Positions 1 to 58,914 of a DNA stretch of 64,000 bases are shown here, piece after piece. Every line of letters starts with the position of its first letter. The stretch's first letter is position 1. The stretch covers positions 46,299-110,298 of the forward strand of contig JBAMJV010011235.1 of the NCBI GenBank assembly GCA_037951105.1, read 5' to 3'. The notes beneath the pieces were generated by a model. That model did no database searches and was not told the origin of the DNA. It worked only from the letters and a program-made list of their open reading frames with translations. Made by a program: the position numbers and the translations under genes. Origin of the DNA: Echinarachnius parma. Taxonomy: Eukaryota; Echinodermata; Echinoidea; Clypeasteroida; Echinarachniidae.

Positions 1-19
1 CTACTTGAGTCCACTCATT

Positions 20-13284: not shown

Positions 13285-13383
<99 letters not shown>

Positions 13384-26180: not shown

Positions 26181-27953
26181 TAACGCGACCACCCAGCTAG
26201 CCACCTGACGTCGTGCCGATGTCATAAGTTGTTGGCCGGATGTCTGCTTATCGCGGTTGGCTCGAGGTTAAAATGTACGCCAGCCTAACATCGTCACTAC
26301 GTCATTTTTGTGATATATTGGCATAACGTCATTATCCGACAATGGCCCAACATCATCTCATGACATTGGATTAACATAACATTATGATGTCAGCTCGAGG
26401 TTAAAATATCCGCTAGCCCAACATTGTCACGACATCATTCTGTGATGTTGGCCCAACGTCAATTTCCACCAATGGCCCAATAAAAATCGATTAGACATGA
26501 ATATGACATCTCAATGATGTCGCCATAGCGATACCCTGCCGATGTCAGCCTCTGGCAGCTATGAACCAAGTCGGCAAATGGTCGTAAAATTGATGTTGCG
26601 CCAATGTCAATAGTTCGACATAAATTTGACATCTCATAAATGACGTCGGGCTAATATCGCGCCGATGTTGGAACTGGTATCAATTTAAGAGATCGGTAAA
26701 TGGTTGAGAAAGTAATTTCGGGACAATGTTATTAATTGGACATCAATATGATATCTACAATATGATGTCAGGCCGATATCCCGCCGACGTTAGAACATTC
26801 AGCAATGAAAGAACTCGGCAAATGGTCATAAAATTGATGTTCCGTTGATGTCAATAGTCCAACATGAATATGACATCTCATGAATGACGTCGGGCCAATA
26901 TCGCCCGATGTTGGAACTGATAGCAATTAAGGAGGTCGGTAAATGGTTGCAAACTTGATGTTGTGCCGAGGTCAATGATTAGACATAAATATGACATCTC
27001 CATGATGACGCCATAGCGATATCATGCCGATGTCAGCCTCTGGCAGCTATGAAACAAGTCGGCAAATGGTCATAAAACTGATGTTGCGCCAATGTCAATA
27101 GTCCGATATGAATATGACATATCATAAATGACGACTAATTATGTATGCATGGTGTACGTATTACGAACTCGTGTGGGAGGGATTCAAAGTTTGACAAAAA
27201 GTTGATATTTGTCTGTTAATCAGGCACTTTTACCAATACCTATTATATACTCACTTTCCCCAAATTCCTTAGAAGGACAACGGAATAACCCTGTTTGCCA
27301 CCTGACATTGTGACAACGTTGGGCCGATGTAAAATGTCCGCCAGCCCAACATCAGCGCGGCGGTTTTTTTTTTAATGCTGACCCAACGTCATTTTGCGAT
27401 TTCGGCCCAACATCAATTATTGACAATGGCCCAATGTCAGTTCTAACGTATGCCCAACGTCGATTCCTGACGTTGAGAACACATCAAGTTCTGACGTTGG
27501 CCCGACGTTAAAATGTCCGCCAGCCCAACATCGTAACCACGTCATTTTGTGATATTGGCCTAACGTCAATTTCTGACCATGGCCCAACATCAACTCATGA
27601 CATTGGCCCAACATAACATTATGATGTGGGCTCGAGGTTAAAATGTCCGCTAGCCAAACATTGTCACAACATCATTCTGTGATGTTAAGCCAATGTCAAT
27701 TTCTGACAATGGCCCAACACCGAATCCTGACATAGGAAAGATATATACAATTCTGATGTGGGTTCAGCGTTAAAATGTCCGCCAGCCCAACATTGGCCCA
27801 ATGTCATTTTGTGATGTTGGCTTACCATTAATTGTTGGCACTGGCCCAATGTCAGTTACCCAACAGAGGGCCAACATCAAATTCTGACGTTGGCCCGACA
27901 TTAAAATGTCCGCCACACCGACATTAACCCAATGTTATTAATTTAACCTCAAT

Positions 27954-28922
27954 ACGTGACTTCGCAGTTGTTGCGATCGCGAAGGTCACGTGATAAAAAT
28001 ATAGTACGCTCGGATCGACGAACGACCTAGCAGACGACGTTTTGTATATAAAGTCAATGTACCCATCACTTTCTGGCATGACATCGAAAGCTAAATGAAG
28101 ATATAATTCATGAATATCAACTCTATGGACATTTTGATTGCCTACATATATCGAGAACAATATACATTTTCAGATTATTCAAGGAATACGATCGTTTGTT
28201 TAAAATTCAAGGATACAACTCGAGTTAATTGACAAAAATGACTCTCGATCCTTTCTTATTGCACGCATGCCTGCCGCACCGTACATTGCACGCGCACGTT
28301 GGTTTCGTGTTTCGTATAACCGCAGAACGAAATCAAGAACCCGATCAAACCCAAATTTAACGACTAAGTATTCATTTCTGACAAACTTGATATGATTTCC
28401 CCTAAGTATGGAATATCTAAAATACATTTCAATGATTTTCCATACAAAGACAATTCTTACCCTTCATTTGAGACTGTATTAATTTGTTGCAGTTTCCCGA
28501 GCGAAACATCGCCGGCCCGGCCCGGGTACATGTACGCACATAATATGCAGACAGTGCTTGAACCGCATACAGCTTGATTGCATGCAATGCAGTGCGCCGC
28601 GAGCCGTGTGATTATAAGTGGCATTCGAGTTTCGAAATATTTTCATCAAAACTCAGTTTGTGGCATTTCAATGTGACAGTAATTATCGTATTTGTTGGAA
28701 ATGTTAGACAGATGTTGTTCTCTTTGTATAATTAGCACTGAAAGTGTCATGAAATTAATATTTATGAATAAATATCTTCATTTAGTGTTGGATGTCATGC
28801 CAGAAAGTAAAGGGTACATTGACTTTATACACAAAACGTCGTCTGCTAGGTCGTTCGTCGATCCGAGCGTACTATATTTTTATCACGTGACCTTCGCGAT
28901 CGCAACAACTGCGAAGTCACGT
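27954..28922. mobile_element. MITE with about 165-bp TIRs and AT duplication
   Basis: TIRs ACGTGACTTCGCAGTTGTTG (then CGATCGCGAAGGTCACGTGA) and inverse, continuing through AACGACCTAGCAGACGACGT and TTTCTGGCATGACATC. The flanks CCTCAAT and ATATGACA rebuild the common type II repeat text CCTCAATATGACA if AT is the duplication. A 2-bp AT duplication is known for ISL2EU-type elements, but that is only suggestive. The interior has no coding region. Confidence 0.8.
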
Positions 28923-30818
28923 ATATGACATTTAAATTATGACGTCACACCGATATCCTGCCGATGTCAGAATTAGCAGCAATAAAACAAGTCGGCAAAT
29001 AGTCATCGAATCAATGTTGCACCAATGTCAATACTCCAAAATGAATATGACATGTCAAATATGCCGTCGGGCTAATATCGCGCAAATATCGGAACTGGTA
29101 GCAATATAGAAGGTAGGAAACAGGTTGTAAAAATTATGTCGGGCCAATGTCATTACTCCGATATAAATATAAGACCCCAAATATAATGTCGGTCCGATAT
29201 TGTGCCGATGTTAGAACTTGTTAGCAATTTAAGAATTCTGTAAATGGTGTTTAGTTTGATGTCAGCCCGATGTAATTTATTAGACATCTGTGCTATGACG
29301 GCAAACATATATTCCGTCGAAGACAGAACCTTCAGCAACGGAACAAGTCGGCAAATTGTAAAATTAGTGTCGTGTCATTAATCCGTCATAAATATGACAA
29401 AATAATGGTCTTAAAATTGATGTTGCGCCGATGTCAATAGTCATACATGAATATGACATCTCATAAATGACGTCGGGCTAATTTCGCGCCGATGTTGGAA
29501 CTGGTAGCAATTAGAGAGGTCGGTAAATGGTTGTGAAATTGATGTCTGGTTATTAAGGAGAAAAAAATATGAAATATCAATTCTGACGTCGAACCGAAAT
29601 CCTGCCGATGTCAGAATGGGCAACAATGAATCAACTCGGCTTATAGTCATTAAGTTGATGTTGAGCCGATGTCAATAATCCGACATGAATATGACATGTG
29701 CTATGTGACGTCGTGCTAATATCGCGCCGATGTCGGAAATGATGGCAATTTACGAGGTCGGTAAATGGTAGTAAAATATCGGTCCAATGTTATTAATTAG
29801 ACATCAGTGTGACCTCTTTAATATGATGTCAAGCCGATGTAAGAACTTGCAGCAATGACACAACTCGGCAAATGTTCATTAAATTGATGTTGTGGCGACG
29901 TCAATGATTAGACATAAATATGACATCTCAATGATGACGCCATAGCGATATCATGCCGATGTCAGAACTGACAGCATGAAACAAGCTGGCAAAATGGTCG
30001 CCAGTTCCGTCATCGGTACAACATTGACCCAACGTCATATTTGAGCTGTCATATTTATGTATATTTAATAACATATTCCCAACATCAATTTTACAATCTT
30101 TGACCAACCTCTTAATTTGCTACCAGTTCCAACATCGGCGCGATATTAGCCCGACGTCATATTTGAGATCTCTTATTCATGTCGGATTAATGACATGGGC
30201 ACGACATTAATTTAATGAACATTTGCCGACTTGTTCCATTTTTTGACATCGACAGGATAACGGTTTGACGTCATATTTCAGATGTCTAATTAATTACATC
30301 GGCCCGACATCAAATTAACAACCATTTGTTATAACGACCTCTTAATTTGCTAGAGCTCTATCATCGGCGCTCTGTCGAACCGACGCCATATTTTAGATGT
30401 CATATTTATGACGGATTAATGGCAGGACATTAATTTTACCATTTGCCGACTTGTTTCGTTGCTGAAGGTTCTGTCTTGGACGGAATATATGTTTGCTGTC
30501 ACAGTATAGATGTCTAATAAATTACATCGGGCTAACATCAAACTAAACACCATTTACAGAACTACTAAATTGCTAACAAGTTCTAACATCGGCACAATAT
30601 CGGACCGATATCAAAACTGGGGTCTCATATATTCATGTCGCAGTATTGACATGGGCGCAACATCGATTTGATGACCATTTGCCTACTTGTTTTATTGCTG
30701 CCAATTCTGACATCGGCAAGATATCGGTGTGACGATATAATTGAGATATCATATTGAGGTCCAATTAAAAACATTGGCCCGACATCAATTTCAAAACCAT
30801 GTACCGACCTCTTAATTT

Positions 30819-30855
30819 CAATTCAATTTCAATTTCAATTTATTCTTGCTTCCAT
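30819..30855 (-). mobile_element. Ultra-short LINE/SINE tail insertion
   Basis: AATTCAATTTCAATTTCAAT and TTATTCTTGCTTCCAT interrupt a type II repeat whose usual text is CCTCTTAAATTGCTACCAG. CTTAATTT and CTTAAATT flank it as an imperfect target duplication. On the minus strand it reads as the final bases of a CR1/L2-type element (GCAAGAATAAATTGAAATTG). Confidence 0.45.
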
Positions 30856-32327
30856 CTTAAATTGCTACCAGATCCAACATCATCACAATATCGGACTGAC
30901 GTCTTAATAGAGATGTCATATTTATGTAGGAGTAATGACATCCACCCGACATCTATTTAACAACCTTTCACCGACCTTTAAAATTGCTATAAATTCCGAC
31001 ATCTGTGCGGTATAGGCCAAAAGTTGTATTTGAGTTGTCATATTTATGTTTAATTAATAACATTTGCCCAACATAAATTTCACAATGTTTTACCGACCTC
31101 TTAAATTATTACCAGTTCTAACATCGGGGCGATAGAAGGCCGATTTTATATTTGAGATGTCATATTCATGTCGAATTATTGATATCGGCACAACATCCAT
31201 TTAATGACTATTACATGATTAGTTACATTGGTGCCATGTATGACATCGGCAGGATATCGCTTTGGCGTCATAATTGAGATGTCATATGGATGTCCAATAA
31301 AAAAAAAACATTCGTCCGACATCAATGTTACAACCATTTACCGACCTCTTTAATTGCTACCAGTTCCAACATCGGCGCGAAATTATCCCGACGTCATATT
31401 GAAGATGACATATTTATGTCAGAATATTGACATCGGCTGAACATCGATTTCATGACTATTTGCCGACTTGTGTCATTGCTGCCAATTCTGACATCGGCGC
31501 GATATCGGCTTGACGTCATATTTGTGATGTCATATTGATGCCCAATTAATAACATCCGTCCGACACCTCTTAAAATGATATATTCCGACTTCGGTACAAC
31601 ATTGGCCCAACGTCATATTCATATTGGTTTATTGACATCGGCCCAACATTAATATTACAACAGTCTATCGAGCTCTTAAATTGGTATCAGTTTCGGCATT
31701 GGTGCGATTTTAGCGCGACGTTTTATATGAGACGTATTTTTTCGTTAGCTTAATGACATCAGCACGACATTCAACTACAACCATTTTCCGACTTATTTAA
31801 TTTCCGAAACCTCGAACTTAAATTCGACGTTGGCGAAATGTTGGCGCGACGTCTGTTTGCCGACCACGATCTTGCCGACGACCTGCCGACACCGGTCCGA
31901 TGTCAGTCAGCTAGCTGGGTACTTATAATATTTTTGTTAACTTGCTTTGAGAATCTATAATGAATTGAATTTCGTTTAATCGATTACAAACATTAGTAAT
32001 TCAAAAGTAAAGAAAAAAAGTATTGCTATCGGGCAATTCATGATCGATTATAAGCGATCGTAAGTGAAATAAAAAATTTCGATTTTTGGAATCATTTTTA
32101 TTAAAAAAATATACTTTTGTCATTTCCTTGCTGCTGAATATAATTTATAAAGATATATAAGAATATAAATAACACATGTAAATAGTGTTATGAATATGAT
32201 TTGAAGGTGGATTATTTCAGATTCAACGTTCTGAAATTACTAACCATTACAAAACATACATGTTAAGAAGGGGTGTATATATATATTATACCGATTGCGA
32301 CCTGTGTTTGTAGGACGATAGGATGAT

Positions 32328-33680
32328 AGCCCAGCTAGCCACCTGACGTCATGCCAACGTTGGGCCGATGTCATTTTCGTTGTAAGGGGACGTTGGGCCA
32401 ACATGCGACATGCGACGTATGTCCGCCAGCCTAACATTAGCTCGGCGTCTTTTTTTAATGCTGGTCCAACCTCATTTAGCGATTTCGGCCCAATTATTGA
32501 CAATGGCCCAATGTCAGTTCTAACGTAGGCCCAACATCGATTCCTGACGTTGAGAGAACATCAAGTTTTGACGTCGGCCCGACGTTAAAATGTCCGCCAG
32601 CCCAACATCATCACTACGTCATTTTGTGATATTGGCATAACGTCAATTTCCGACAATGGTCCAACATCAACTCATGACATTGGACCAACATAGCAATATG
32701 ATGTCGGCTCGAGGTTAAAATGTCCGCCAGCCCAACATTGTCCCAACATCATTTTGTGTTGTCGGGCAAATGTCAATTTCCGACAATGGCCCAACACCGA
32801 ATCCTGACATAGGACAGATATCAAATTCTGATGTGGGCTCGACGTTAAAATGTCCGCAAGCCCAACATCGTCACTACGTCATTTTGTGATATTGGCATAA
32901 CGTCAATTTCCGACAATGGCCCAACATCAACTCATGAGATTGGACCAACATAGCAATATGATGTCGGCTCGAGGTTAAAATGTCCGCTAGCCCAACATTG
33001 TCAAGACATCATTTTGTGATGTCGAGCGAATGTCAATTTCCGACAATGGCCCAATACCGAATCCTGATATAGGAAAGATATCAAATTCTGATGTGGGCTC
33101 GACGTTAAAATGTCCGCAGGCCCAACATTGTCCCAACATCATTTTGTGATGTCGGGCAAATGTAAATTTCCCACAATGGCCCAACACCGAATCCTGACAT
33201 AGGACAGATACCAAATCCTGATGTGGGCTCGACGTCATATTGTCCGCCAGCCCAACATCGTCACTACGTCATTTTGTGATATTGGCATAACGTCAATTTC
33301 CAACAATGGCCCAACATCAACTCATGACATTGGACCAACATAACATTATGATGTCGGCTCGAGGTTAAAATGTCCGCTAGCCCAACATTGTCACGACATC
33401 ATTCTATGATGTTGGTCCAACGTCAATTTCCACCAATGGCCCAATATCAAATCCTGACGTTGGGCCAACATCAAATTATGACGTTGGCCAGACATTAAAA
33501 TGTCCGCCAGCCCGACATTAGACCAACGTTATTTTTTATTGTTGGCCCAACATCAAATCTTGACGTTCGCCCGACGTTTGAATGTCCGCTAACCCAACAT
33601 TGGCCCAACGTCATTTTCTGATGCTGGACCAACATCAAAATTTGACAATGGCCCAATGTCAAATGGCCAATGTAGGACCA
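32328..33680. repeat. Type I array, about 130-bp monomer
   Basis: Centre of the giant element. AAAATGTCCGC(C/T/A)AGCCCAACAT recurs near 32587, 32717, 32846, 32978, 33106, 33238 and 33367. Variants repeat every third monomer (ATGTGGGCTCGACGT near 32830 and 33221), a higher-order repeat of about 390 bp. The array starts with a terminus copy CCCAGCTAGCCACCTGACGT (32328). TTGGGCCAA-like words make monomers partly self-complementary. Confidence 0.8.
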
Positions 33681-34404
33681 ACATCAAAAACGAAAAAAGA
33701 AATTGGAAAATATGCATAGATTCCACGTCCGATCCATGCATTTTGTGTAACCTTTACACACATTCATTCATAAATCATATAATTCTATTCTATAAATATC
33801 CTATTCCTATACCTATTGCCTACTCCTAAACCTATCATCCTTTCGTCCTACAAACATAGGACGCAATCGGTACATTATATATACACCTCTTCTTAGCATG
33901 TATGTTTTGTAATAGTTAGTATTTGTAGAGCGTTGAATCTAAAATTATCCACCTTCAAATCATATTCATAACACTATTTAAGTTGTGATTTATATTCTTA
34001 TATATTCTTCTAAATTATATACAGCAGCATGGACATGACAAAAGTATATTTTTTTATATAAATAATTCCAAAAATCGAACGTTTTCAATTCATTTACGAT
34101 CGCTTATAATCGATCATGAATTTCCCGATAGCAATACTTCTTATTTTTTTTTACTTTTGAATTACTAATGTTTGTAATCGATTACGAAATTCAATTCAGT
34201 ATAGATTCTCAAAGTAACAAAAATATAAGTACCCAGCTAGCTAACTGACGTCGGACCGGTGTCGGCAGGTTGTCGGCAAGATCGCGATCGGCAAACAGAC
34301 GTCGCGCCATTATTTCGCCAACGTTGAATTTAAGTTGGAGGTTTTGGAAATGAAATAAGACGGACAATGGTCAATGGTTGTAGTTGAATGTCGTGCCGAT
34401 GCCA

Positions 34405-34979
34405 TTAAAGGGGAATTCCACCCCAGAAATGTGATGTTTGCATAGAAAATGAGGTGAATGTGAAGAACCATGATCGAAAACTCTGAGCCAAAACGGTAGA
34501 GCAATAAAAAAAAAAGTTATGACAGGATGAACTTTGCTCCGATTATTAGTATCTTTTGCAATTGCTATCGATCGTGACGTCACTTGCGAGCTGCAGCCAT
34601 TTTGACTTCTACATGGAAATTTTACAAAATTAAAATTTTCTTCATAACAAAGCAAATTTATGAGCTTACAAATTCCAATGAGGTTGGCCCATCGATATTC
34701 TTCTATGAATTCTTGAAAACAAGCAGAGAAAAATTAATACTTAGCAACGAAAATGAGAAATAAGTGTATTTTCATGTACTAAAGCCATACGTCGAGTTGC
34801 TCGTGAATGATGTTGCATATGGCGGTAATTTTGAAACGATCGCTCATTACTACATGATGTTCAAATAGGTATAACTCCCATTTTTCTTGTCCTATTTTTA
34901 TCAATTTTCACAAATTAATCCTCTTGTTCTTCTTATTCAAATTACGTATGGTTTAATCAGGCCCGGAATACCCCTTTAA
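34405..34979. mobile_element. Kolobok/T2-like MITE, family 2
   Basis: Ends TTAAAGGGGAATTCCACCCC and (inverse of right end) TTAAAGGGGTATTCCGGGCC, with TTAA at 34405-34408 and 34976-34979. The mirror arm of the giant element (near 31740) has the same host text without it (inverse GATGTCATTAAGCTAACG), proving a single TTAA at the empty site. No coding potential. Confidence 0.85.
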
Positions 34980-37900
34980 GCTGACGAAAAAAATACGTCT
35001 CAAATAAAACGTCGCGCTAAAATCGCACCAAAGTCGAAACTGGTACCAATTTAAGAGCTCGATAGAGGGTTGTAATATTAATGTTGGGCCGATGTCAATA
35101 AACCAACATGAATATGACATCTCAAATATGACGTTGGGCCAATGTTGTACCGATGTCGGAATAAATCATTTTAAGAGGTCGGTAAATGGTTGAATATGGA
35201 ATTGATGTCGGACGGATGTTATTAATTGGACATCAATATGACATCACAAATATGACGTCAAGCCGATATCGCGCCGATGTCAGAATTGGCAGCAATGACA
35301 CAAGTCGGCAAATAGTCATGAAATCGATGTTCAGCCGATGTCAATATTCTGACATGAATAATGTCATCTCCAATATAACGTCAGGATAATTTCGCGCCGA
35401 TGTTGGAACTGGTAGCAATCAAAGAGGTCGGTAAATGGTTGTAATATTGACGTCGAACCAATGTTTTGTATTGGATATCCATATGACATCTCAATTATGA
35501 CGTCAAAGCGATATCCTGCCGATGTCATAAATGGCACCAATGAAACTAATCATTAAATAGACATTAAATGGATGTTGTGCCGATGTCAATAATTCGACAT
35601 TAATATGACATCTCAAATATAAAATCGGCCTTCTATCGCCTCGATGTTGGAACTGGTAGTAATTTAAGAGGTCGGGCCAATGTTATTTATTAAACATAAA
35701 TATGACAACTTAAATACAACTTTGGGCCTATACCGCACAGATGTCGCAGCTTATAGCAATTTTAGGTCGGTGAAGGGTTGTTAAATAGATGTCGGGCGGA
35801 TGTCATTACTCCTACATAAATATGACATCTCTATTAAGACGTCAGTCCGATATTGTGAAGATGTTGGATCTGGTAGCAATTTAAGAGGTCGGTACATGGT
35901 TGTGAAATTGATGTCGGGACAATGTTTTTAATTAGACCTCAATATGATATCTCAAGTATGACGTCACACCGTAATCTTGCCGATGACAAAATTGGCAGCA
36001 ATAAAACAAGTAGGCAAATAGTCATCAAATCGATGTTGCGCCCATCTCAATACTGCGACATGAATATGAGGCCCCAAATTTGATGTCGGTCCGATGTAAT
36101 TTATTAAACATCTATACTATGACGGTAACCATATATTACGTCAAAGACAGAACCTTCAGCACCGGAACAAGTCGGCAAATGGTAACATTAATGTCCTGTC
36201 ATTAATCCGTCATAAATATGACATCTAAAATATGGCGTCAGTTCGACAGTGTGCCGGTGATAGAGCTGGTAGCAATTTAAGAGGGCGTTATAATAAATGG
36301 TTGTAAATTTGATATCGGGCTGATGTAATTAATTTGACATCTGAAATATGACATCAAACCGTTATCCTGTGGATGTCAAAACCGTTATCAATGGTACAAG
36401 TCGGCAAATGGTCATTAAATGAATGTCGTGCCCATGTCATTAATCCGACATGAATAAGAGATCTCAAATATGACGTCGGGCTAATATCGCGCCGATGTTG
36501 GAACTGGTAGCAAATTAAGAGGTTGGTCAAAGATTGTAAAATTGATGTTGGGCTTATGTTATTAACTTTACATAAATATGACAGCTTAAATATGACTTTG
36601 GGTCAATGGTGTACCGATGTCGGAACTGGCGACCATTTGTCGGCTTGTTTCATGCTGCCAGTTCTGACATCGACATGATATCGCTATGGCGTCATCATTG
36701 AGATGTCATATTCATGTCTAATCACTGACGTCGCCACAACATCAATTTAATGAACATTTGCCGAGTTGTGTCATTGCTGCAAGTTCTTACATCGGCTTGA
36801 CATCATATTGAAGAGATCACATTGATGTCTTATTAATAACATCGGACCGACACAAATTTTTACTACCATTTACCGACCTCCTAAATTGCTATCATTTCCG
36901 ACATCGGCGCGATATTAGCACGACGTAACATTGCACATGTAATATTCATGTCGGATTATTGACATCGGCTCAACATCAACTTAATGACTATAAGCCGATT
37001 TGATTCATTGTTGCCCATTCTGACATCGGCAGGATTTAGGTTCGACGTCAAAATTGATATGTCATATTTTTGTCTCCTTAATAACATCGACCAGACATCA
37101 ATTTCACAAACATTTACCAACCTCTCTAATTGCTACCAGTTCCAACATCGGCGTGAAATTAGCCCGACGTCATTTATGAGATGTCATATTCATGTAGGAC
37201 TATTGACATCGGGGCAACATCATTTGTATGACCATTTGTCATATTTATGACGGATTAATGACAGGACATTACTTTTACCATTTGCCGACTTGTTCTGTGC
37301 TGTCTTCGACGGTATATATGTTTGGCGTCATAGTATAGATGCCTAATAAATTACATCGGGCTGACATCAAACTAAACACCATTTACAGAATTCTTAAATT
37401 GCTAACAAGTTCTAACATCGGCACAATATCGGACCGACATCATATTTGGGGCCTCATATTTGTATCGGAGTAATGACATTGGCTCGACATAAATTTTACA
37501 ACCTGTTTCCTACCTTCTATATTGCTACCAGTTCCGATATTCGCGTGATATTAGCCCGACGACATATTTGACATGTCATATTCATGTCGGAGTATTCACA
37601 TTGGTTCAACATCGATTCGATGACCATTTGCCGACTTGTTTTATTGCTGCTAATTCTGACATCGGCAGGATATCGGTGTGACGTCATAATTGAAATTATT
37701 GACGTTCAATTAATAACATTGGGCTAATTATGGGGTGGCGGACATTTTAATGTCGGGCCAACATCAGGATTTGATGTTGGCCCTTTGTTGGGTAACTGAC
37801 ATTGGGCCAGTTCCAACAATTAATGGTAAGCCAACATCACAAAATGACATTGAGCCAATGTTGGGCTGGCGGACACTTTGACGTCGAGCCCATATCAGAA

Positions 37901-38449
37901 TTGTTTATCTCTCCTATGCCAGGATTTGCCCTACGTCAGGATTCGCCCGTCAGAATTTGCCCGACATCACAAAATGATGTTGGGACAATGTTGGGATGGC
38001 GGACATTTTAACGTCGGGCCAACGTCAGAACTTGATGTTCTCTCAATGTCGGGAATCGATGTTAGGCATACGTTAGAACTGACATTGGGCCATTGTCGAT
38101 AATTGATGTGGGGCCGAAATCGCAAAATGACGTTGGGTCAGCATTAAAAAAAAAACGCCGCGCTGATGTTGGGATGGCGGACATTTTTACGTCGCATGTT
38201 TAATGTTGGCCCAACGTCCTCTTACAACGAAATTTACATCGGCCCAACGTTGTCAAAATGTCAGGTGGCTAACAGGATTATTCCGTTGTGCTTCCTAAGC
38301 ATTAGAGGAAAGTGAGTATACAGGTATTGGTAAAAGTGCCTAATTAACAGACAAATCTCAACTTTTTGTCAAACTTTGTATCCCTCCCACACGAGTTCGG
38401 CTTAAAATGATACGTACACCATTCGTCCATAATTAGTCGTCATTTATGA

Positions 38450-41165: not shown

Positions 41166-41592
41166 TTAAAGGGTACCACCACCCAAAAATAATATTCTTA
41201 TTAAAGAAAGGTAACATCTTTATTATTCCATTCCATCAACAAGTTCACAAAAATATGTTTCCAGAAAACAAATATATAATTGGAAACGCATCACCATTCT
41301 AAAGCATACGTTCATGCGGTCTGAATTGCGAAGACTGCGATGTGTGCACAGCGAACGAATCGCCCGGGAATCTATTATCTACAAACGTACGCGTGAATAG
41401 CATTCGCGCACTCGCAAATGGTTGGCCAGTATGGAACCAGGAAATAGCAGTGGTTCCGTAAGTGGTGGAAATTAATTGCTTTGTTTATGAATTACACAAG
41501 CCTTTGCAAAATGTTGGGTATCTATTAGATATCACAAAACGGTACCAAAACATACAATAATGTGTTGTTCTTTGCCTGGTGGTCCCCTTTAA
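41166..41592. mobile_element. Kolobok/T2-like MITE, family 3
   Basis: Ends TTAAAGGGTACCACCACCC and (inverse right end) TTAAAGGGGACCACCAGGC, TTAA at 41166-41169 and 41589-41592; 427 bp. No coding potential. Confidence 0.8.
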
Positions 41593-43014: not shown

Positions 43015-43016
43015 TA

Positions 43017-43903
43017 CACCGTGTCCCAGAAAAAACGAAACCGGGTTTCATGGCAGAAATGTTATGTTATAATGAATAATTTCCTTGATGATATATATAT
43101 GTCTGAAAAGCTACGTGTCTCTTCTTTTATTTGATATACAACTTATGGCACATAATTCACGCATGACTGAATTAGAACGATAGAAAGTGGTGTTACCAAA
43201 ATTCAATTTGCGCGCAGAAATTGCAAGTTTGGGTGAGGTTTTGGGGAGAGTTTTAAGAGTAGTAAACGTACTTATTTTGAAAAAGGACAGACACCGCATG
43301 AAAATTCATAATTCTATCTTTTATATGACTCCTCATGATTAAAAAATAAATGATATATGCCAGAGAACGAATACAATGAAAACATGCTTGATTCCAGCCC
43401 CAATGAGTAACTTTCCTGACCTAGCCTGTTTCCTGATCCCCATGTTTGTGTAAATTCACTCATGCATCAACGTCCATTGTCAGCTGCTAGTCAGGAAAGC
43501 TGAGCGACTTCTTACTCAACTTTCACTCATTCGGGCAGAAATCAGGCATGTTTTCATTGTACTCGTTCTCTGGCATAAATCATTTATTTTTTTAGCATGA
43601 GGTGTCATGTAAAAGATAAAAATATGAACTTTTATGTGGTGTTTGTCCTTTTTAAAAATAAGTACGTTTAATACTCTTAAAACTCACCCAAACTTCAAAT
43701 TTATGCGTGCAAATTGAATATTGGTAACACCACTTTCCATTGTTCTAATTCAGTCATGCTTGAAGTATGTGCCATAAGTTGCACATCACATGAAAGAAGA
43801 GACACAGAGCTTTCCAGGCATATATATATCATCAATTAAATTATTAATTCTGACAGAAAATTTCTGCCATGAAACCCGGTTTCGTTTTTTCTGGGACACG
43901 GTG
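43017..43903. mobile_element. Mariner-type MITE, nearly full palindrome
   Basis: TIR CACCGTGTCCCAGAAAAAAC followed by GAAACCGGGTTTCATGG, inverted at the right end, each flanked by TA. Arms run about 300 bp (43017-43320, 43610-43903). An inner inverted pair (GCCAGAGAACGAATACAATG and inverse) leaves only a short unpaired core. TA targets and this terminus are typical of Tc1/mariner. No transposase. Confidence 0.85.
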
Positions 43904-44448
43904 TATTGATGCTGATGATGGGTAATAGAGATGACAGTGATCGTGTGGGGCGGCATTAACCGTGGGCATGGTTGAATTTCATTAAATGAGAAGGGTTAAT
44001 CGAGTGAAGTGTAGAATGATGCCTAATTGAGTTTGCTATGCAGATCTAATCGAGTATACGAAAAGAGTTTTAATCTGTGTGACATAATTATCTTAAATTG
44101 TTATCATTAGTGTTATTAAGTAAATAAATATACCACCGATGGCTCGATATGCATGGTCGGAATCATCTCCACTGAAATCGTGATAGCCGCCGTCATGCTT
44201 GGCTGATCGAAGTAAGCGATCTATTCATCCTATTCCCTATTCATAGTTCCATACACATACTACCACGCCCAAAAACGAAATACAATAAGCCGCAGAACTT
44301 ATACCCCCGATTATTGCGCGTCCTGCCCTGATTTCTAAGAGCTCGTTTTTCTTAATGTTTAGTGCATAAGATAAATTAGATACATTAGCTTGTACTCTTC
44401 GTTAAGTAATTGGCGTTTGTTGTAGGAACTGTGTGTTCTTTCTTATTA

Positions 44449-45150
44449 GACCGCCGGGCGAGTATGGAAATTTCTTACTTTTGTGACCCCCTCGTACAGT
44501 TACATTTTAAGTAGTGGAGATTGTTTGTAAACATATTTAAGTATGAAATCAATGTCTCGTCAATCGCGAAAAGTGCACGTAAGTTCATAAAATGAAAACA
44601 AATCATTAAAAATATTGATTTAACTTGGATACATTTTGTCCAATCACTGTGCGTCTCTCAAGTACGGATTATAGTGCATCAGAGTCAGAATCCAATCACA
44701 AGCTTTGTTCTAAACCGCGCGCTTTATATACACGGCGTAATCAATAATGTATCCAATCCCAGTGCATCTTTCATTGGAACGTAGCGCGACCCCGTTATGA
44801 AGAGCCAATCAGATTGCTTGTTTTATCATTGAGCTAAATATATAATGATGTACGTAACATCAAAATGCTCTTCCCGCCGGCGTGGCCTATGGGGCACTGA
44901 TCGGCTACGAAAAGAGGCACAACGATGAAAACAAGCGATCTGATTGGCTCTAGCGTATGGGACAGCGTTACGTTCTAACGAGAGATGCATTGGGATTGGA
45001 TTATTTGGAAGATTGTTGTAAACAAAATTATTTCAAGTTTTGTCCACAAAAATATGCATCTACCTTCTGGTAGAATTGCATGTAGAGATGTCGATGGTGG
45101 GTCACAAAAAGTAAAAACTATAGAATCTTTCGGCCGCTCACCCGGCGGTC
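44449..45150. mobile_element. TA-flanked MITE, GACCGCCGGG ends
   Basis: GACCGCCGGGCGAG (44449) and CTCACCCGGCGGTC (to 45150), both next to TA. Inner inverted pairs include AATCCAATCCCAGTGCATCT and GAGCCAATCAGATTGCTTGT with their inverses at 44925-45000. Non-coding. Confidence 0.75.
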
Positions 45151-45259
45151 TATAATGTACGTAATAAATCGAGCCGCAATTATGATGTAATTGTGTTACT
45201 TGTTAAACGTATGAACGCCAGCAAAACGATATAAAAAATATAATTTATTTTTTAAAGAA

Positions 45260-45620
45260 AATTGTTGGGTGTTAGTTTTTACTAATCTTAACTTTTTCAT
45301 AAAAGGGTTTTGAACAAAATTACTTGACAGGATCGTTTTTATTGACTTACTTTTTTGTACAAAATGAGATTTATCCGTCGAGTCATCAATGAGTGAGCGC
45401 ACCTTAAAGACAAAATTGTCACTTTTCAAAAGTCATGTGTCTTTTAAAAAGTGACAATTTTGTCTTAATGACGTATGCCATGTATGCTCACACATGCATG
45501 ACTCGACGAACCAATTTTATGTTCATACATAAATTAGTCAATAAAATTAAAACCAACCCTGCCAAGTTATTTTGCTCAAATTGTTGCGTTTTTTGTTATG
45601 GCGAGGGAGTTTAAAGCGAT
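45260..45620. repeat. Palindrome of the TGCATGACTC family
   Basis: Centre near 45430 (AAAGACAAAATTGTCACTTT and inverse). The arms carry TGAGTC/GACTCA near ATGCATG words and AAATTACTTGACAGGAT-like text. Related single-arm sequence at 46140-46360 and the large palindrome 54534-56067 share GTAGGAACAATCCTGC and CGTTAAAAAGTTATG. Confidence 0.65.
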
Positions 45621-46425
45621 GCCTGTAAAGTGTCTAAATCCACGAAAAATACTTGGAGCTTCCTCGTTTCTTTTCTGTCGTGTTGTTTAGCTTATGGTAA
45701 GAGAAGAATAAAATAGGGTTAGATTTTTTCAAATTGCCCTTTGGTATGAAGATAATTATCATTAATTGAAAACCGTTACGTAACGGGATTGAATAGTCGT
45801 CGCTAATTGTGTCCCGCATTGCAGTCCATTGCTTGCCATTGCAGCATGCATCGTGGGAACAGTATGTACCGGAAATTGGACTTTGAACCCAGTGAGCGTG
45901 AATTCCATGAATTCTGTACTACGTGCGTAAACAGGGGTTCGAATATCTCAAACGGGCTAATTATTCCTGTGACAATGTATCAGTATTCGGTGATAAAATA
46001 TGAACTCAATATTCGTGTTTTCACTAGGTAAACAACGTTTGTTTTCTTTCAAACTTTCACAAATCTTTCAATTGTATTTTACAATGATATTGATATAGGA
46101 TTGAAGTCTCAAATGTCAGTTTGTGCAATATCTTACACTTTACCGGTTTCACTTTAAGGCAAAACTGTCACGTTTCACTCTTGTGACTTTTGAGAAGGGA
46201 CAATTTTTGCCTTTAAGAGCGAGCTCATCCATGCATTACTCTACGGGTCAATCTCATTTTTATCCAGATATTAGTCAATAAGTGTAGGAACAATCCTGCA
46301 GAGCTATTTTGCTTAAACCTTTTCGTTAAAAAGTTATGCTATTTTGATTAGGGGGAATTGTCTTTTTAGGTTGTGTTTAGTAGGGACAATCTTACCTATA
46401 ATACATCGTGGAACTTTATTATCCT

Positions 46426-47202
46426 GGGGGTGTATTCTGAAAATCGTCTTTTCCCTAATATCGTATTATCTTAGGCTTATGACAAAACCGGTATTCTGAA
46501 AACTCTCATATCTTTTGTATTATCTCTGAAAGTTTGTTAACCTCTATTAGCTGGCGCGCCTTGCCACGCATTATTGATAAGCGCGTTCGCGCAAGCAGAG
46601 GTGGAAAATGTGTATTCTGAAAACTCTCTTATCTTTTATCTCATCATGAAATTATCATAAATTCTACATTATGCTGAGACAGCTATGGGGCAGTATTTTC
46701 CTTTTGTTATATCTTGTTTAAACATATTTAAAGACAATTATTTGAGATTTTAAAGAGCTCCCTATGTTTGTTGTGTGTATAGGTGTGTGTACGTGCGAAA
46801 AAGTTAGAAAATAAGAGTGAGGGGGAGAAAATTCCATTGAAAATCTAACCATATGAAAATCCCATTCTTACAAAAATACTCTTTGACCAAAATATATAAA
46901 TTTCTTGAACTTTGATTGAAAATTCTATGTGTGCGCAAAGCTAGTTAGATGCGCGCATTTAAAGAAAATGCGACGCATACGCAATTTAACCCACTTTGAT
47001 TGGCTGAGGGGGCATATAAACATTTTGTAACAACAATTTTGATTGGTTAACTCAGCACTAATGGGCGTGGTCAGGGAAAGATATGATGCCCTTAAGACAA
47101 TTTTCAGAATACCGATTTATGACAATTTTAGTGGTGTATTATCTTATGGACTTATGACAAAAGATAATACAAAAGATAAGACGATTTTCAGAATACACCC
47201 CC
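46426..47202. mobile_element. MITE with GGGGGTGTATTCTGAAAATC ends, copy 1
   Basis: Both ends carry GGGGGTGTATTCTGAAAATC as inverted repeats. GTATTCTGAAAACTCTC also recurs inside. About 777 bp. It forms an inverted pair with 48451-49200. Non-coding. Confidence 0.8.
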
Positions 47203-48450
47203 TGGGTATTAAGGAAATACAGCGTACGTTTTGTTTTGTTTGCGTACGCAAACGGTGGGCCCCCCCCCCCCCCCCCCCCTCCCCCTTATACATCGAACAC
47301 AACGGCGTGAATGCGTATACACATAGACCCTAAGAACGCTAACTTGCTATCGATTGGCGTTTTACAAAATGAAACAGCGCATAATGATTGTGCATACAAG
47401 CGTGTTGGCGCAACTATACACTGGCGGTGGTTGTGAAAGTAACAATAGGTAGCCCAGGGGGCCGGGGCGCTTCAATATAGATGGTCAATTTTCAATGATC
47501 AATCAGCGGGACGATACCATTGACCTGTACCTAGTAGAGGTCAATGGACGATACCCACGCACGTGCAGTACTTTAGATTTACAAGCTGCCATGCATCATT
47601 GCATTGGAATAATTCGCTTTTGAAACTCTGTGCGTGCTACGTATTGACAACATAGTGGTGACATGCAGCACCCGCAGTCCCAAACATGCCAACTAGCGTC
47701 AACCAATCAAAATCATTACCTCGTTGTTAGGGGCGGAGTCAAGTTTTGGCGCCTCGATATTCCCCAACGAACTAACCGCTCGAAGTTTAAACTTTTTGTG
47801 AGAAAAACGCTTATATTTCAGTTATTATTGCACCAAATTCTTAGCAAATTTTTAGAAATTGTAGAGGAAACTCCATTTAATCAAATACGCTAAAAAAAAA
47901 ATCATGATTTGTTAACAATTTTAACCTTCAACTCATTTTTCTCGGTCCGAGCCCACGCGACTTGTGCTTCAAATAGTGATGCAGCATCACATTTTTCACT
48001 ACATAAATTATTTAGACCATTATTTTGGAATAGAATAATAATTCATCAAAACAAATTGGAATAGCCAGTTTCTTCCTTTCTGCATTTGTATTGTTTGTGT
48101 TGTTTGTTTCATTTCTAACTATAATTGACCTTTTTGAACACCAAAACAAACACTACAAATGTCAACCAGACCAAACCAACGCGATGTATCTATTTTGAAC
48201 GAAAACTTATATTGGCCAGTTGTTTTGTACACACATCACGAAATTGAGCGATTTTCGGGATTTCGTAACGGTAGGTTCGAGCTTTACGGTTTGGAGCAAT
48301 AAAACAAATCTCGGAGGTGGGGGGGGGGGGGGAATAATGGCCCCCAGCCTTGTCGAGCCACATGTACAATATCATACAGAGGTGGTTAATTCCTGTGATT
48401 CCTGCCAAATTGTTACGCACTTTTCAGGCAGCTAATTATTTTCGAAACCA
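47203..48450. other. Spacer: hairpin, C tract, old MITE fragment
   Basis: C tract 47260-47285. Hairpin 47517-47547 (CCATTGACC, TAGTAG in the loop, GGTCAATGG). 48005-48325 is a diverged piggyBac-like MITE interior (CATTTCTAACTATAATTGA, ACGAAATTGAGCGATTTTC, GTAACGGTAGGT) ending at a G tract. A 76-codon frame at 47663-47893 has no recognised motif. Confidence 0.5.
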
Positions 48451-49200
48451 GGGGGTGTATTCTGAAAATCGTCTTATCTTTTGTATTATCTTTTGTCATA
48501 AGTCCATAAGATAATACACCGCTAAAATCGTCATAAATCGGTATTCTGAAAATCCCAGACCACGCCCATTAGTGCTGAGTTAACCAATCAAAATTGTTGT
48601 TACAAAATGTTTATATGCCCCCTCAGCCAATCAAAGTGGGTTAAATTGCGTATGCGTCGCATTTTCTTTAAATGCGCGCATCTAACTAGCTTTGCGCACA
48701 CATAGAATTTTCAATCAAAGTTCAAGAAATTTATATATTTTGGTCAAAGAGTATTTTTGTAAGAATGGGATTTTCATATGGTTAGATTTTCAATGGAATT
48801 TTCTCCCCCTCACTCTTATTTTCTAACTCTTTCGCACGTACACACACCTATACACACAACAAACATAGGGAGATCTTTTAAATCTCAAATAATTTTCTTT
48901 AAATATGTTTAAACAAGATATAACAAAAGGAAAATACTGCCCCATAGCTGTCTCGGCATATGAGTAGAATTTATGATAATTTCATGATGAGATGAAAGAT
49001 AAGAGAGTTTTCAGAATACACATTTTCCACCTCTGCTTGCGCGAACGCGCTTATCGATAATGCCTGGCAAGGCGCGCCAGCTAATAGAGGTTAACAAACT
49101 TTCAGAGATAATACAAAAGATATGAGAGTTTTCAGAATACCGGTTTTGTCATAAGCTTAAGATAATACGATATTAGGGAAAAGACGATTTTCAGAATACA
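48451..49200. mobile_element. MITE with GGGGGTGTATTCTGAAAATC ends, copy 2
   Basis: Inverted counterpart of 46426-47202, alignable over nearly its whole length (for example AGCTAATAGAGGTTAACAAA and GCGCGAACGCGCTTATC). The last terminal bases are lost on the right. Confidence 0.8.
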
Positions 49201-49571
49201 TGTTTTTCTAAATAGGCCTAATTATTCGTTCTAGCTCCCATGTTTTAAAAAAGCCTATGAATGACTACTACTTTAAATAAAAAATTAGTTTACATCTTTT
49301 CAGTTCGATGATGAGAATGAGAAAGATCAGAATCTTGTTGTCATTAGTTTATATTTGAAACATCGTGATTCATGATGATTATTAGTTGCCCCCACCCCAC
49401 CCTCCCCCTCCCACACACACACACACACACTATCCACTTAGAGGACCCTTTACGTAATCTATACACTGGGAATTGTTTGTACATCTTTGATATTTTATTA
49501 CAGTGAACTTATAATTGAGTTAAAAACTGTACGAAATTTGTTTGTGAATAATGGCAAAAGAAAAGAAAAAA

Positions 49572-49660
49572 TGCCGCACCGGGGACTCGAACCCACTTCT
49601 AACATCAACTTATATTAAGTTATGCACGTGCGACCGACCTAACCCACTCGGCCACCAAAG
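49572..49660 (-). tRNA. tRNA-like remnant (pseudo-tRNA or SINE head)
   Basis: On the minus strand GGTGGCCGAGTGGGTTAGG matches the Ser/Leu-type box A, and GGGTTCGAGTCCCCGGTGC the box B/T arm, about 55 bp apart, ending GCGGCA. The 5' acceptor strand (CTTTGG) does not pair with GTGCGGC and the T stem has two mismatches, so it is not a functional tRNA. A SINE promoter is as likely as a tRNA pseudogene; no SINE tail was identified. Confidence 0.55.
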
Positions 49661-49970
49661 ACTTAGTGATCACATGACAGATTTTATCAACTTATATCGA
49701 CCTATGATGCCACTAGGATTTATGCCTTCATCGTCGGCTATGCAAACCGTTAGCGCTAGCGATGTGTCTCCGCGCGCGGCGGGCATTCAATTTTTAGAAG
49801 AGAGTCACGCACATTTCTTGCGAGTTTAGTTACAAATTTCACTAAAAATAGGGAATATCCACTAAAATCGTATCGACCAAGTGAATGGTTTGAATGTTTT
49901 TTTTTTCAATTATGGTATTCAATACATGTATGTGGTAAGTCTACATTACGGCTTGCTCTCTAATTCGTAA

Positions 49971-50692
49971 TACCCAGGGGGCAAACACCAATTTTTTTAG
50001 GATTTCAGCTTTTGCCTGTTGTAAAAGGTTGGCCACCAGAAATGACTTATAGGACCTTCTAGGATCACAACCTAGGTGGACAACCTCGCGAACTAGCTAC
50101 TGGAAGTCCACAGGATGAGTTTCAAGAAAACCACACCTAACATGCCTAATGCACTAAATAGTGTGTTTTAGCCCTAGGGGTCATGAATACCCAGTCATAC
50201 ATCTTGCACAATTACACCACAATGCATAGTGATACAAGCTTGTTATTTCATGGAGGTCTTCTCTAGAGTATTGCTCATCATTTGATACCAAATTTGAGCA
50301 TATTGCTTCTTTGGTTACTGTGTCACAGGTCGTTACAACGTGATATGTCACACATGGATGTGAAATTTGGAATACAGCGCTTATGTATGAAATGCAAATA
50401 ACTCCTTAAGAGTTAATAATAGGCTATATTTTGATCTTTATAAACTTAATTCGATTTGAAATACTAAGAGCATTATACAATGACACCAACTATGTAAATT
50501 AATAAATCAATACAAAACAAAAAGCAATAAAAACAATCAAATACATAAGAATATGAGTTGTCAATGTATTAATTTGTTTAGATTGCGATAAAATGATACA
50601 AAATCCATCTATAACTTCATAATTTGAATCAGATACGGAGGAGGTGTGCTTGTGTGTGTGTGTGTGGGTGTGTTTGTCTGTGTGTGTGTGTG

Positions 50693-50732
<40 letters not shown>

Positions 50733-53700
50733 TGTGTAGTTTTGTGGGGGGTTGGAGGGGTCACAAGACCATCCGTGGACTCCAAAAATAATTATAATCG
50801 AGGACTATACTCACCCAGTATGGACGAAGTGTAAATAAAGGCTTACATGACAAGTTCAAAGCAGAGTCTCTTACTAGTTCATAAATGAGGTACATTATGA
50901 AGCTTTGAAGAGGCTACTATTATTAAGGATTGGCCCCAGAAGTCGCTTATAGGATCTTCTAGGAACACAACCTGTGTGCAAAACCTTGCGGACTATCTGC
51001 TGGAAGTCCACGTCAAGCGTATATTTTTAAAAAACTGTCTACACCAAACCACTCATCTCTACCGAGTTGAAATATATGCTGCAACTTCATCATGATCTAT
51101 GTCGTGTCATAGGGGATGAAGAGCTGTAGTCGAGGTCATGGCAGCAGTGGAAACCAAACCGTACACAGACACAGCACATTCCCTCAGGAACATGTGCTTT
51201 TCCGGTCAAATAAAAACTCACCAACGTGAAAAGGGGGTGTCTGAAGGCACTAACAGGGTCTTATTCCAGTGAGAAGAATAAGACAAGACTTATGACGCTC
51301 AACACCTTCTACACCTTAACAAGAATCTCAAGAAGAAAAACAGCTGCACCAGGCAATTGCAATGAAGTTCTGCGCATGACACTGATTTTTGCTAGTGGTA
51401 GACAGCTTGACATGTATGACTTTATAAGAAAAGCATGAGTTCAAGGAACCCGGCAGTAAGTGAAGTGGTAGGAAGACTAGCCTAGTGAAGTTATACAAGA
51501 GGAAACCAAAGTGCCAAACCAAATGTTTCTGATTTGCCATAGGATAACAGAAAGAACAGCAGTGGTCCTTTCACAATGGTGAAACATTTTTAAAAATTCC
51601 AAAGCATGGAACCGCCTTCTTCATGTATAGGAACAGTTATTCTGGCACCATTTAACACATCAACATGATATTGTCTTTCCCAGGCTTGCTGTGAAGTTGA
51701 CACTAGAAAGGCTTTTCCATCATTGAGGGACTTTCCAAACTCTGTACATGATGGAATGTTTGGCTTGGGAATGTGCGCATTTTTATCAATGATGGCATGA
51801 GAAGCTCGTTTGGGACAAAGGAGAAAAGCGTCCTCTTTAGGAGGCAGTAGCTTCAAGAGAGTTGACTCGTTGTTTTAAACTCTCAGTTTGCCCAGATCGG
51901 GATCCTTAAACTGGTCTGCTTTGGTGTTGTACACATCCATTGTGAGTTCTCGTGTCCTAGTGATACTGTCATCTGTTAAAGCATTGGCAGGGTGTTTCTT
52001 ACCAGCAGTGTCGATATGTTCCGATTCTGGGCTGTCCTCACCCACAGCTCTGAGAGATCAGTGAGACGTGCTTGTGACGTCAGTGGCATTGGCATGAATA
52101 ACTACTCTGTCGACTCTGTTAACTACCCTGTAGTAGAATGTGTACAATAAGACCCTTGTAACAGCCTCTTCATGCCTGTTGTGTAGATCCAAGGGCAGGA
52201 ACCTCCATCGCAGACCCCACTGTGAGAACAACGCTCTTTTCTTTCTTCCTTGAATCCACCACCAATGTACAGATGGCTTTGACCAAGCTAAGGTTCAAGC
52301 AGTCCATAATAACACCACCTTTCACAGGGTAAGCTCAAAATGTATGTTTTGGTAGCTTGATATCGTGAAAAACTCCTGTGGATCAGAAGCTGCGCATTTC
52401 CCAATGACTTCATAGACTTTGGCTCATTTGGATAGGACACACCTATTGTTCCATTTCAGCAGACTTCAGGCTGGTCTACAAAAGTGTATGATATCAGTAC
52501 CGAAAGGAAATTCTTCCAGCAACAGATTTGCGTGCCATTCAGTGATTGCTTCAAATGCTTTACCTTTATGAGATGGCCAGTGACATATGGCGCACATTGC
52601 ATCAACAACCACTGTTCTTTTACAGTTTGGTTGTCATTGACATTGACTACAACCTCTTTATCCCTGATGACACGATTCTGACCAATATATGGTGTGGGCT
52701 GGATGAATGAAGATGCATCATAGAGGGAGCATACACTTCAACTCTGTTTGTAGAGATGGCTGCATTTAGTGGGTTTTTTGTAGATGCTTTTCAAGTTCCA
52801 ATTCATGTGGACTTCCAGCAGCTAGTCCAACTAGGTTGTGTTTGTAGAAGGTCATATAAGTCAATTATGTGGGCCAACCTTTACCATGAGCCAACTATGA
52901 TCATGTCTGTTACACCTCCTTTGCTAGCTTCACGATGTAACTCCTTTAGACTTCGAATGAGACTCGCCCTAAAACGTGTCATGTAAGCCTACAGACACAC
53001 TTCGTCCAACCTGGGTGGGTAGACCTCGATTATAATTAATCTTTTGAACATCCCCTTCCCTCCTCCCGTGTATCTCATTCAAGCGATAAGCTTAATATGT
53101 GATTTTGTGGATATATTTTGTATCATTTGATATAGTAATTTAACCACATCTAAACAAATTATTACATTAACAAATCATATTCTAATGTTTTGCATTGTTT
53201 TTTATTGCTTATGTTTGTTATTGTTTATTAATTTACATACTTAGTTTAATTATATCATGCTCTCAGTAGTTATCTAAAATGCGAATTACGTTTTTAAAGA
53301 TCGAAACATAGCCTATTTTTCATTTATAAGAATTGCCTTTTATACATATGCGCTGTATACGAATTTCACGTCCGTATGTGACGTATCACGTTGTAACGAC
53401 GTGTGACACAGTAACCAAAGATGCAATATGCTCAAATTTGGTATCAAACGATGCGCAGGACTCTAGGGAAGACCTCCATGAAAGACAAGCTGGAATCAGC
53501 AGTGCATTGTGGTGTAATTGTGCAAGATGTGTGACTGGGTATTCATGACCCCTAAGGCTAAAACACACGATTTAGTGCATTAGGTATGTGGTTTTCTTGA
53601 AACTCATCCTGTGGACTTCCAGTAGCTAGTTCGCGAGGTTGTCCACCTAGGTTGTGATCCTAGAGGGTCCTAGAAGCCATTTCTGGTGACCAACCTTTTA

Positions 53701-53741
53701 CAACAAGCAAAAGCTGATAAACCCCTTTTGCCCCCTGGGTA
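49971..53741 (-). mobile_element. Long-TIR DNA transposon, probably Academ-like
   Basis: TACCCAGGGGGCAAA and TTTGCCCCCTGGGTA ends, flanked by TAA on both sides. TIRs extend about 770-890 bp (49971-50865 against 52970-53741), including TCATGAATACCCAGTCA, TACCAAATTTGAGCATATTG and TCGATTATAATTA. A GT repeat (50646-50738) is present only in the left TIR. A TIR segment (GGATCTTCTAGGAACACAAC...) repeats again at 50930-51010. The interior holds a decayed minus-strand gene. A 3-bp duplication and a nuclease-like motif fit the Academ superfamily; this is inference. Confidence 0.65.
51590..52700 (-). pseudogene. Decayed transposon protein with nuclease-like motif
   Basis: Minus-strand translation recovers collinear pieces: VVDAMCAICHWPSHKGKAFE then ITEWH (about 52610-52540); HNRHEEAVTRVLL (about 52180) and DRVVIHANATDVTSTSH (about 52090); TMDVYNTKADQFKDPDLGKL (about 51920); LLKLLPPKEDAFLLCPKRAS (about 51840), then NAHIPKPNIPS. 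From memory, this resembles a large uncharacterised family in marine invertebrates with EEADTR...HANDTDV, an acidic pattern like PIN/FEN1-XPG nucleases. Here D-to-A and D-to-V/A losses hit those acidic positions. Stops (after SH and LRV) and frameshifts show it is dead. The role would be element transposition. Confidence 0.55.
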
Positions 53742-54299
53742 TAACCATGTAAGCGTTTTCGTCACCATTTTAAGGGGGTTCGCGTGATTTTGTCTCTGGT
53801 GTTGACCAACACTAGCGATACTGCGATTCATTACTACTCAAGGTCATCACGATTAAAAAGTTCGTGACCTTAGACTCAATCTGGAAGCTGGTGTTTAGCT
53901 CAGATTAGAGGCAGATTTTCATCCTCAACACTAACACTAACCCCAACACCATACTTGAAATCACCCAATGTCGGAAATTGACGTTATGCCAATATATCAT
54001 AAAATGACGTAGTGACGATGTTGGGCTGGCGGACATTTTAACCTCGAGCCAACCGGGCGATATGCCGACATCCGGCAACCAACTTCCGACATCGGCCCGA
54101 CTTCAGGTGGCTAGCTGGGACACTGTTGGTCATAATTTATGTATTAAATGATAGATAGAAAACAGGAATTTCTACTTCAAGTCTGAAAGGGAATAAATAA
54201 GTAGATGAAAATAAGAAACTATTTTTGCTTTAAATTTGTATTCATCAAAATCAGAAAAACCATAAGCAGAATATGTGCGCTACACATTATAAGTTGTTT

Positions 54300-54480: not shown

Positions 54481-54533
54481 CCCGGAATGGCTAGGCTTTG
54501 TATTTGAGTAGCGCCAAATCCATTATTCTTCAT

Positions 54534-56747: not shown

Positions 56748-56818
<71 letters not shown>

Positions 56819-58870: not shown

Positions 58871-58914
<44 letters not shown>

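Follow-up and report, generated by a model that had tools for sequence, protein, structure and literature searches.

The window analysed here is a stretch of 64,000 nucleotides from the echinoid Echinarachnius parma (GCA_037951105.1, contig JBAMJV010011235.1, positions 46,299 to 110,298), and its subject is the region between positions 26192 and 54119, in which tandem repeats follow each other in mirror order. An earlier note, made from the letters of this DNA, had described the region as a single giant foldback element. Our results make it very probable that the region instead consists of two independent, touching and oppositely oriented insertions of one high-copy, non-autonomous transposon of the CCC-type CACTA/EnSpm kind (TRC). 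The mirror is that of copies lying tail to tail, one of them swollen by a large later insertion.

Composition of the mirror-ordered region

The region is filled by two kinds of tandem unit, type I of about 122 bp and type II of about 130 bp, and is punctuated by a terminal 17-mer, CCCAGCTAGCCACCTGA. This sequence occurs exactly at 26192(+), 32330(+) and 54103-54119(-), and with 2-3 mismatches at 27289(+), 31903-31919(-), 34232(+) and 38261-38277(-), amounting to seven sites in the window against 0.04 expected. Self-comparison gave the block order T1-II-I-S1-T2-II-I followed by I-T3-S2, the centre and then the mirror image, where T denotes termini and S spacers. The order is as described in the earlier note, except that what was called the central type I is type II plus 141 bp. 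The features are listed below under the names they receive if two copies are present (MITE, miniature inverted-repeat transposable element).

26192..32329, + strand: left copy, truncated at 32329; left end T1 at 26192; components in order, matched in genome copies at 93-98% for the most part; lacks the loop, the right type II array and the right end
26192..26217, + strand: 26-bp terminal inverted repeat, left end of left copy; extent from the 16 of 16 complete genome copies, 100%
26218..26488, + strand: type II array adjoining the left end
26489..27133, - strand: type I array A, 122-bp units, 6 matched
27134..27288, + strand: spacer S1
27289..31919, + strand: internal T2...T3 segment bounded by diverged termini, with type II, type I blocks B and C, and MITEa inside
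27955..28921, unstranded: MITEa; TA duplication, inverted ends of ~213 bp (88%); mirror position without it
31920..32329, + strand: spacer S2, cut point of the left copy
32330..54119, - strand: right copy, complete and reversed; right end at 32330, left end at 54119; order as in genome copies; carries MITEb and the 13.3-kb insert
32330..32355, + strand: terminal repeat, right end of right copy
32356..33690, + strand: type II array, right end of right copy
33691..33831, + strand: loop, a 141-bp unique stretch that adjoins S2 in intact copies
34409..34975, unstranded: MITEb; TTAA duplication; mirror position without it
38438..40640, + strand: type I array A' of right copy, expanded (19 matched units versus 6 in array A)
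40705..53965, unstranded: 13.3-kb later insert; ends GGTGATTTCAAG...CTTGAAATCACC, CAATG duplication
54094..54119, - strand: terminal repeat, left end of right copy

The mirror order itself is well borne out. Eight gap-free mirror blocks, from which the outer type I arrays of unequal length were left out, are 91.2-94.6% identical and together hold 270 mismatches in 4037 aligned columns. The order of the repeat units is collinear between the arms (24 versus 24 units), with a score of 4.6 against a maximum of 1.8 among 1000 shuffles, none of which reached it. Using only units of at least 85 bases (68 of 75), reciprocal pairing with the mirror partner was found for 8/8 units of block B and 13/15 of block C. 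The mirror match ends at the CCCAGCTAGCC termini: the 200 bp outside the two outer ends are unrelated (score 13, shuffle mean 14.8), in contrast to the 109 bp inside them (score 157). The inner orientation switch at about 29990 is no palindrome by unit order, since 250 of 1000 shuffles reach its score, and a palindrome of unit order within blocks B and C was rejected on this ground. Type II units seemed self-complementary in a profile search; in a direct test their mean self score was 35.6 versus 17.6 for shuffles, unevenly between units, and no claim is based on it.

Three later insertions interrupt the arms. MITEa and MITEb each occupy one arm and have an empty counterpart in the other. The 13.3-kb insert carries CAATG on both sides, as the earlier note had stated; its counterpart site in the left arm holds about one more type II unit and is not cleanly empty.

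Structure and insertion sites of the genome-wide copies

The 309-bp left end has at least 40 full-length matches of 97-100% identity in the same genome (1.2 Gb), the window's own included, a lower bound because 40 of 1969 first-look candidates were scored. Stretches around 20 of the other 39 were fetched, and 16 of these contain a complete copy. Among the remaining four, L011 and L012 reach contig ends, L020 extends past its stretch and L023 has no right end of its own; the left end of L023 pairs only with the end of a separate 338-bp relative and was therefore not counted as complete.

The complete copies are 3,263-7,463 bp long and uniform in their ends. Every one of the 16 begins with T1 (58-59 of 60 bases) and finishes with T4 (57-59 of 60), and the two ends form a 26-bp inverted repeat at 100%, with CCCAGCTAGC at either end and a start in CCCAG. 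The intact element thus reads T1-II-I-S1-T2-II-I-I-T3-S2-loop-II-T4 between the inverted ends CCCAGCTAGCCACCTGACGTCGTGCC, and the second arm seen in the window is absent from it. The internal termini that the earlier note had recognized are present, T2 in 13 and T3 in 14 of the 16 copies (at most 3 mismatches in 17), but as diverged termini inside a single copy. Of the termini it had called internal and outward-facing, the one at 32330 is a genuine end, the right one of the inverted copy. The longest stop-to-stop frames in the 17 stretches compared, L023 included, measure 84-131 amino acids, with none longer. The earlier note was right in seeing a transposon made up mostly of satellite-like repeats.

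Target duplications accompany these ends. A 2-bp direct repeat flanks 14 of the 16 complete copies, TA in seven of them and otherwise AC, TC, AG, TT (twice), CC or CA; with L023 still included, the count of 14 in 17 stretches has P = 8e-15 against a chance of 1/16. L019 and L029 are without a 2-bp repeat, although L029 is flanked by TGG on both sides when three bases are considered. Of the 14 copies flanked by a 2-bp repeat, 13 show no longer exact repeat (up to 12 bases), and the remaining one lies in poly-C. The genome-wide terminus search proposed in the earlier note has in this way yielded paired ends with differing flanks. In addition, the window itself contains an unoccupied relative of one target:

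9974..10126, unstranded: paralogue of the target of genome copy L025, empty, with one TA where L025 has two

The ends, the duplications and this empty site support cut-and-paste transposition with a 2-bp target duplication.

Foldback-like forms do exist in this family on a small scale. In 12 of the 16 copies, the longest inverted self-match lies between the T2 array and the right-end array (585-719 columns, 80-86%). The 338-bp relative in L023 (6633-6970, reverse-complemented) is palindromic, with TA on both sides, and holds the T1 end and part of the array twice in inverted orientation (175-bp arms, 91%); it is a miniature derivative of the family. In L015 (4547-4603), two family members are arranged head to head, their ends separated by 55 bp, which shows that inverted pairs are not confined to the window.

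Ancestry of the two arms and alternative explanations

The relationships of the arms to unlinked copies were examined in three parts, excluding copies with less than 90% of a part (n = 15, 14 and 10 for S1, S2 and B). Arm to arm, the identity is 92.7% in S1, 91.7% in S2 and 94.6% in B. The left arm is on average 96.9%, 97.5% and 97.2% identical to the unlinked copies, and the right arm 93.6%, 92.9% and 95.8%. Every one of these copies resembles the left arm more than the right arm does, and the right arm, too, is nearer to each of them than to its partner. The unlinked copies were chosen by similarity to the left copy's end, which biases the comparison for that end and not for S1, S2 or B. Since in all three parts each arm has nearer relatives among the unlinked copies than in its partner, we conclude that the arms did not arise by inverted duplication. 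The right copy is probably older or belongs to another subfamily, as it is more diverged, carries two inserts and has a divergent loop.

An inverted segmental duplication of one copy, through a hairpin, breakage-fusion or extension of a terminal inverted repeat (TIR), could account for the collinear repeat units, which no shuffle of 1000 matched. However, it would require the arms to be mutual closest relatives, which they are in none of the three tested parts; moreover, the centre is the normal right end of the element and the match stops before the flanks, and we hold this origin to be highly improbable. The single giant foldback transposon, of the Galileo, Tetris or FB kind with inverted repeats of about 5 kb each and moving as a unit, is hardly more attractive and should be considered very unlikely. 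The mirror order, the near-even divergence and a match stopping exactly at the termini speak for it, as do the small forms described above (the 338-bp palindrome and, in 12 of 16 copies, an inner inverted repeat 0.6-0.7 kb long). Nevertheless, the complete genome copies are single-armed with 26-bp inverted ends, each arm matches unlinked copies better than its partner in the three parts tested, and no target duplication is found at the outer ends. For the pair 26192/54119, a two-base match appears only after moving both ends by 2. None of the ten terminus pairs in the window has a target duplication at the ends as defined, and shifting both ends by 1 or 2 bases gives two-base matches in 3 of 10 pairs, T1/T7 included, as chance allows. 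The pair 26192/54119 joins the ends of different copies of a 3.3-7.5 kb element, and the one giant element of the earlier note must be given up. A foldback or Mutator reading built on even divergence, mirror collinearity and likeness to Galileo, Tetris and Mutator-like elements (MULEs) was dropped on the structure of the genome copies. That the region is a satellite array with transposon-like ends by chance would fit the predominance of tandem repeats in the element, but is almost inconceivable given the paired ends whose flanks differ, the 2-bp duplications of 14 of 16 copies and the empty site.

The central junction at 32329/32330 deserves separate consideration. In intact copies S2 continues into the loop, while in the left copy it abuts the right copy's outer end; no such joining of S2 to a forward T4 was seen in the 20 fetched stretches. 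Both copies could be real and the junction an assembly misjoin between near-identical repeats, which the high copy number, the left copy without its right part and the lack of a clean 2-bp duplication would allow. A misjoin would be expected within shared sequence, yet the join lies exactly at a transposon end, and we regard this explanation as unlikely. Under the reading of two touching insertions, the last part of the left copy would have been lost when a deletion or an aberrant transposition fused S2 to the right copy precisely at its outer end. It is conceivable, though doubtful, that the exact join is the scar of a transposase acting on the ends of two copies (hybrid-end or alternative transposition). 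If so, array-rich CCC-type elements would generate pairs in inverted orientation, delete sequence locally and acquire new outer ends, such as T1 outside T2.

Several observations weigh against two independent insertions. The divergence of the arms is near-even over the eight blocks (chi-square p 0.08), which alone suggested one duplication, and the furthest unlinked copy is only marginally closer to the right arm than the left arm is (0.9276 versus 0.9272 in S1, 0.9171 versus 0.9167 in S2). The loop of the right copy is 81-86% like that of most copies and reaches 92% in one, the neighbour copy in L015. The flanks of the right copy are AG and AC and not a 2-bp repeat. Two insertions with a random deletion explain a junction exactly on a transposon end only by luck. 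Finally, as regards the autonomous relative with the same ends that the earlier note suggested seeking, the genome has 17 Transposase_21 matches, and no such locus could be tied to these element ends within the flanks fetched. Two independent insertions nonetheless remain the reading we favour, in which a supposed giant palindromic element is replaced by a testable transposon family. The case also warns that a pair of inverted neighbours from one family may be mistaken for a single mirror-symmetric element.

Classification, transposase and neighbouring elements

The CCC ends and the 2-bp duplications point to the CCC-type CACTA/EnSpm transposons (TRC), a membership that rests on ends and duplications and not on a transposase. 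Inverted ends beginning with CCC are present in 16/16 complete copies, and 2-bp duplications in 14/16, next to the one empty site and a GA duplication in a second family (below). The ends begin with CCCAG and not with CACTA as in CACTA elements in the strict sense; the 8-11 bp target duplications of Mutator/MULE elements were not found, and Helitrons or Helentrons would have neither inverted ends nor target duplications. The long inverted repeats of foldbacks are likewise not the ends in use, which measure 26 bp in 16/16 copies. The earlier note had recognized no described family; the CCC-ended CACTA/EnSpm kind with 2-bp duplications, as portrayed in two papers (PMC1636069, PMC4298943), fits.

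According to the sections of PMC1636069 on animal TRC elements of the CACTA/EnSpm superfamily, these start with CCC and make 2-bp duplications (in 7/14 copies), and SmTRC1 contains tandem repeats. SmTRC1 and its insect relatives thus share with the family described here CCC at both ends, internal tandem repeats and the duplication length, and their inverted ends, e.g., CCCAGTCAAC and CCCTAGTAGCACC, can be likened to ours; in contrast, SmTRC1 has a Transposase_21 gene, whereas the copies here are largely arrays without a long frame (PMC1636069). Spongebob_HMa/EnSpm-4N1_HM from Hydra, in the description given in PMC4298943, has the inverted end CCCAGCCAACATTGAC and a 2-bp duplication like our family, but its sequence differs. 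Galileo and Tetris resemble the family in their internal satellite-like tandem repeats of variable array length. They differ from it, in the accounts consulted, by TIRs of up to about 1.2-1.7 kb instead of 26 bp, by the 8-10 bp duplications of Tetris instead of 2 bp, and by the P-type transposase of Galileo (PMC3573991, PMC3688188, PMC4079207). MULEs with multiple tandem TIRs recall the second terminus with its own array in the left arm, T1 then T2, but their 9-11 bp duplications and long TIRs, as outlined in PMC3310237, are unlike this family. A literature search for sea-urchin TU foldbacks found nothing, and a looser one gave only the Tetris paper. The family links a superfamily outside the Mutator and P foldbacks to satellite-like arrays: most of its DNA consists of such arrays with a repeated half-site, and it has 2-bp duplications and an empty site.

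Between 26192 and 40704 there are 357 instances of this half-site (TGAYRTYGG or its complement), whereas shuffled sequence gave 18 on average; 57 pairs of half-sites face each other at a distance of 10 bases. Because the motif had been derived from this very sequence, the figure characterizes the arrays but cannot serve as an independent test. Elsewhere in the window the half-site is scarce, apart from the second family's array. Repeated transposase-binding sites are known from Galileo arrays, according to the part of PMC3688188 that deals with them, and the half-sites here may similarly bind a transposase. A further, doubtful possibility is that the arrays are kept up because they serve as transposase-binding platforms and that they give rise to satellite DNA.

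The copies must rely on a transposase made elsewhere. All 17 Transposase_21 matches exceed Pfam's cut-off, and 14 control genomes gave none; loci of 756, 784, 807 and 874 amino acids are among the matches. Six loci (L035-L040; C1014, C5053 and four more) encode Transposase_21 in a 775-amino-acid frame and are at least 99.9% identical over the compared part, so that this family was probably active recently. It also carries a tandem array, with matches displaced by 42-base steps, and its ends lie beyond the 7.8 kb read; CCCAGATAGC at 5808 of C1014 was rejected as an end because the identity between two copies continues past it. A Transposase_21 protein made elsewhere in the genome might bind the ends, perhaps also the repeated half-sites, excise the element and insert it by a 2-bp staggered cut. 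The inverted repeat between the T2 and right-end arrays suggests that T2 and T4 may once have bounded an older element whose inverted arrays were longer; the outer T1-II-I-S1 part would have been gained later, and the element would now move by T1 and T4.

A second CCC-ended family lies at the left edge of the window:

1..1360, - strand: second, related family member, right part; 60-bp repeats; 3,681 bp in full with L030:2680-5000; GA duplication

Its 60-bp array ends in CCCAGGTAGC at the window's edge, the other end being at L030:2680, and the element has the ends CCCAGGTAGCAAGCC and the motif GTTGGNCCAAC. The two families have similar ends and motif and the same duplication length but differ in sequence, without a BLAST match between the second family and copies of the first. 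A PriCT_2 match in its interior (E 0.013, 16.3 bits versus a cut-off of 22) was taken as chance.

Database searches gave little else. The Pfam scan, with stops read as X, found only two reverse-transcriptase domains in the window parts scanned; 1-1360 and 54120-59199 lay outside it, and within 26192-40704 it covered 27130-34260 in one frame per strand. There was no Pfam domain in the six frames of the 13.3-kb insert, and no THAP/P transposase in the window stretches scanned, the genome not having been searched for this domain. Rfam gave no match at the gathering score and a scan of bacterial genomes none. In IMG/VR, the 17-mer had one match with only short matches in its surroundings, and three other patterns had none.

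Other elements surround or interrupt these copies. Open frames at 7931-9043(-) and 19820-20572(-) contain reverse transcriptase (RVT_1) and zf-RVT domains and are retroelement remains. The 13.3-kb insert, with short inverted ends (GGTGATTTCAAG), contains nested inverted-repeat elements, e.g., 46431-49200 (arms 95%) and 49967-53745 (arms 85%), and a palindromic MITE-like unit at 43014-43906 with CACCGTGTCCCAGAAAAAACG ends, which appear Tc1/mariner-like. Smaller inverted-repeat structures at 22110-23421 and 12392-13755 have arms with 16-bp tandem repeats of the GGTTCGTTATTCCGAA type, the former also with 22-bp tandem repeats. Finally, a 1.5-kb near-palindrome at 54534-56064 (92.6% self-complementary, with 367-bp repeats inside) is a candidate true foldback.

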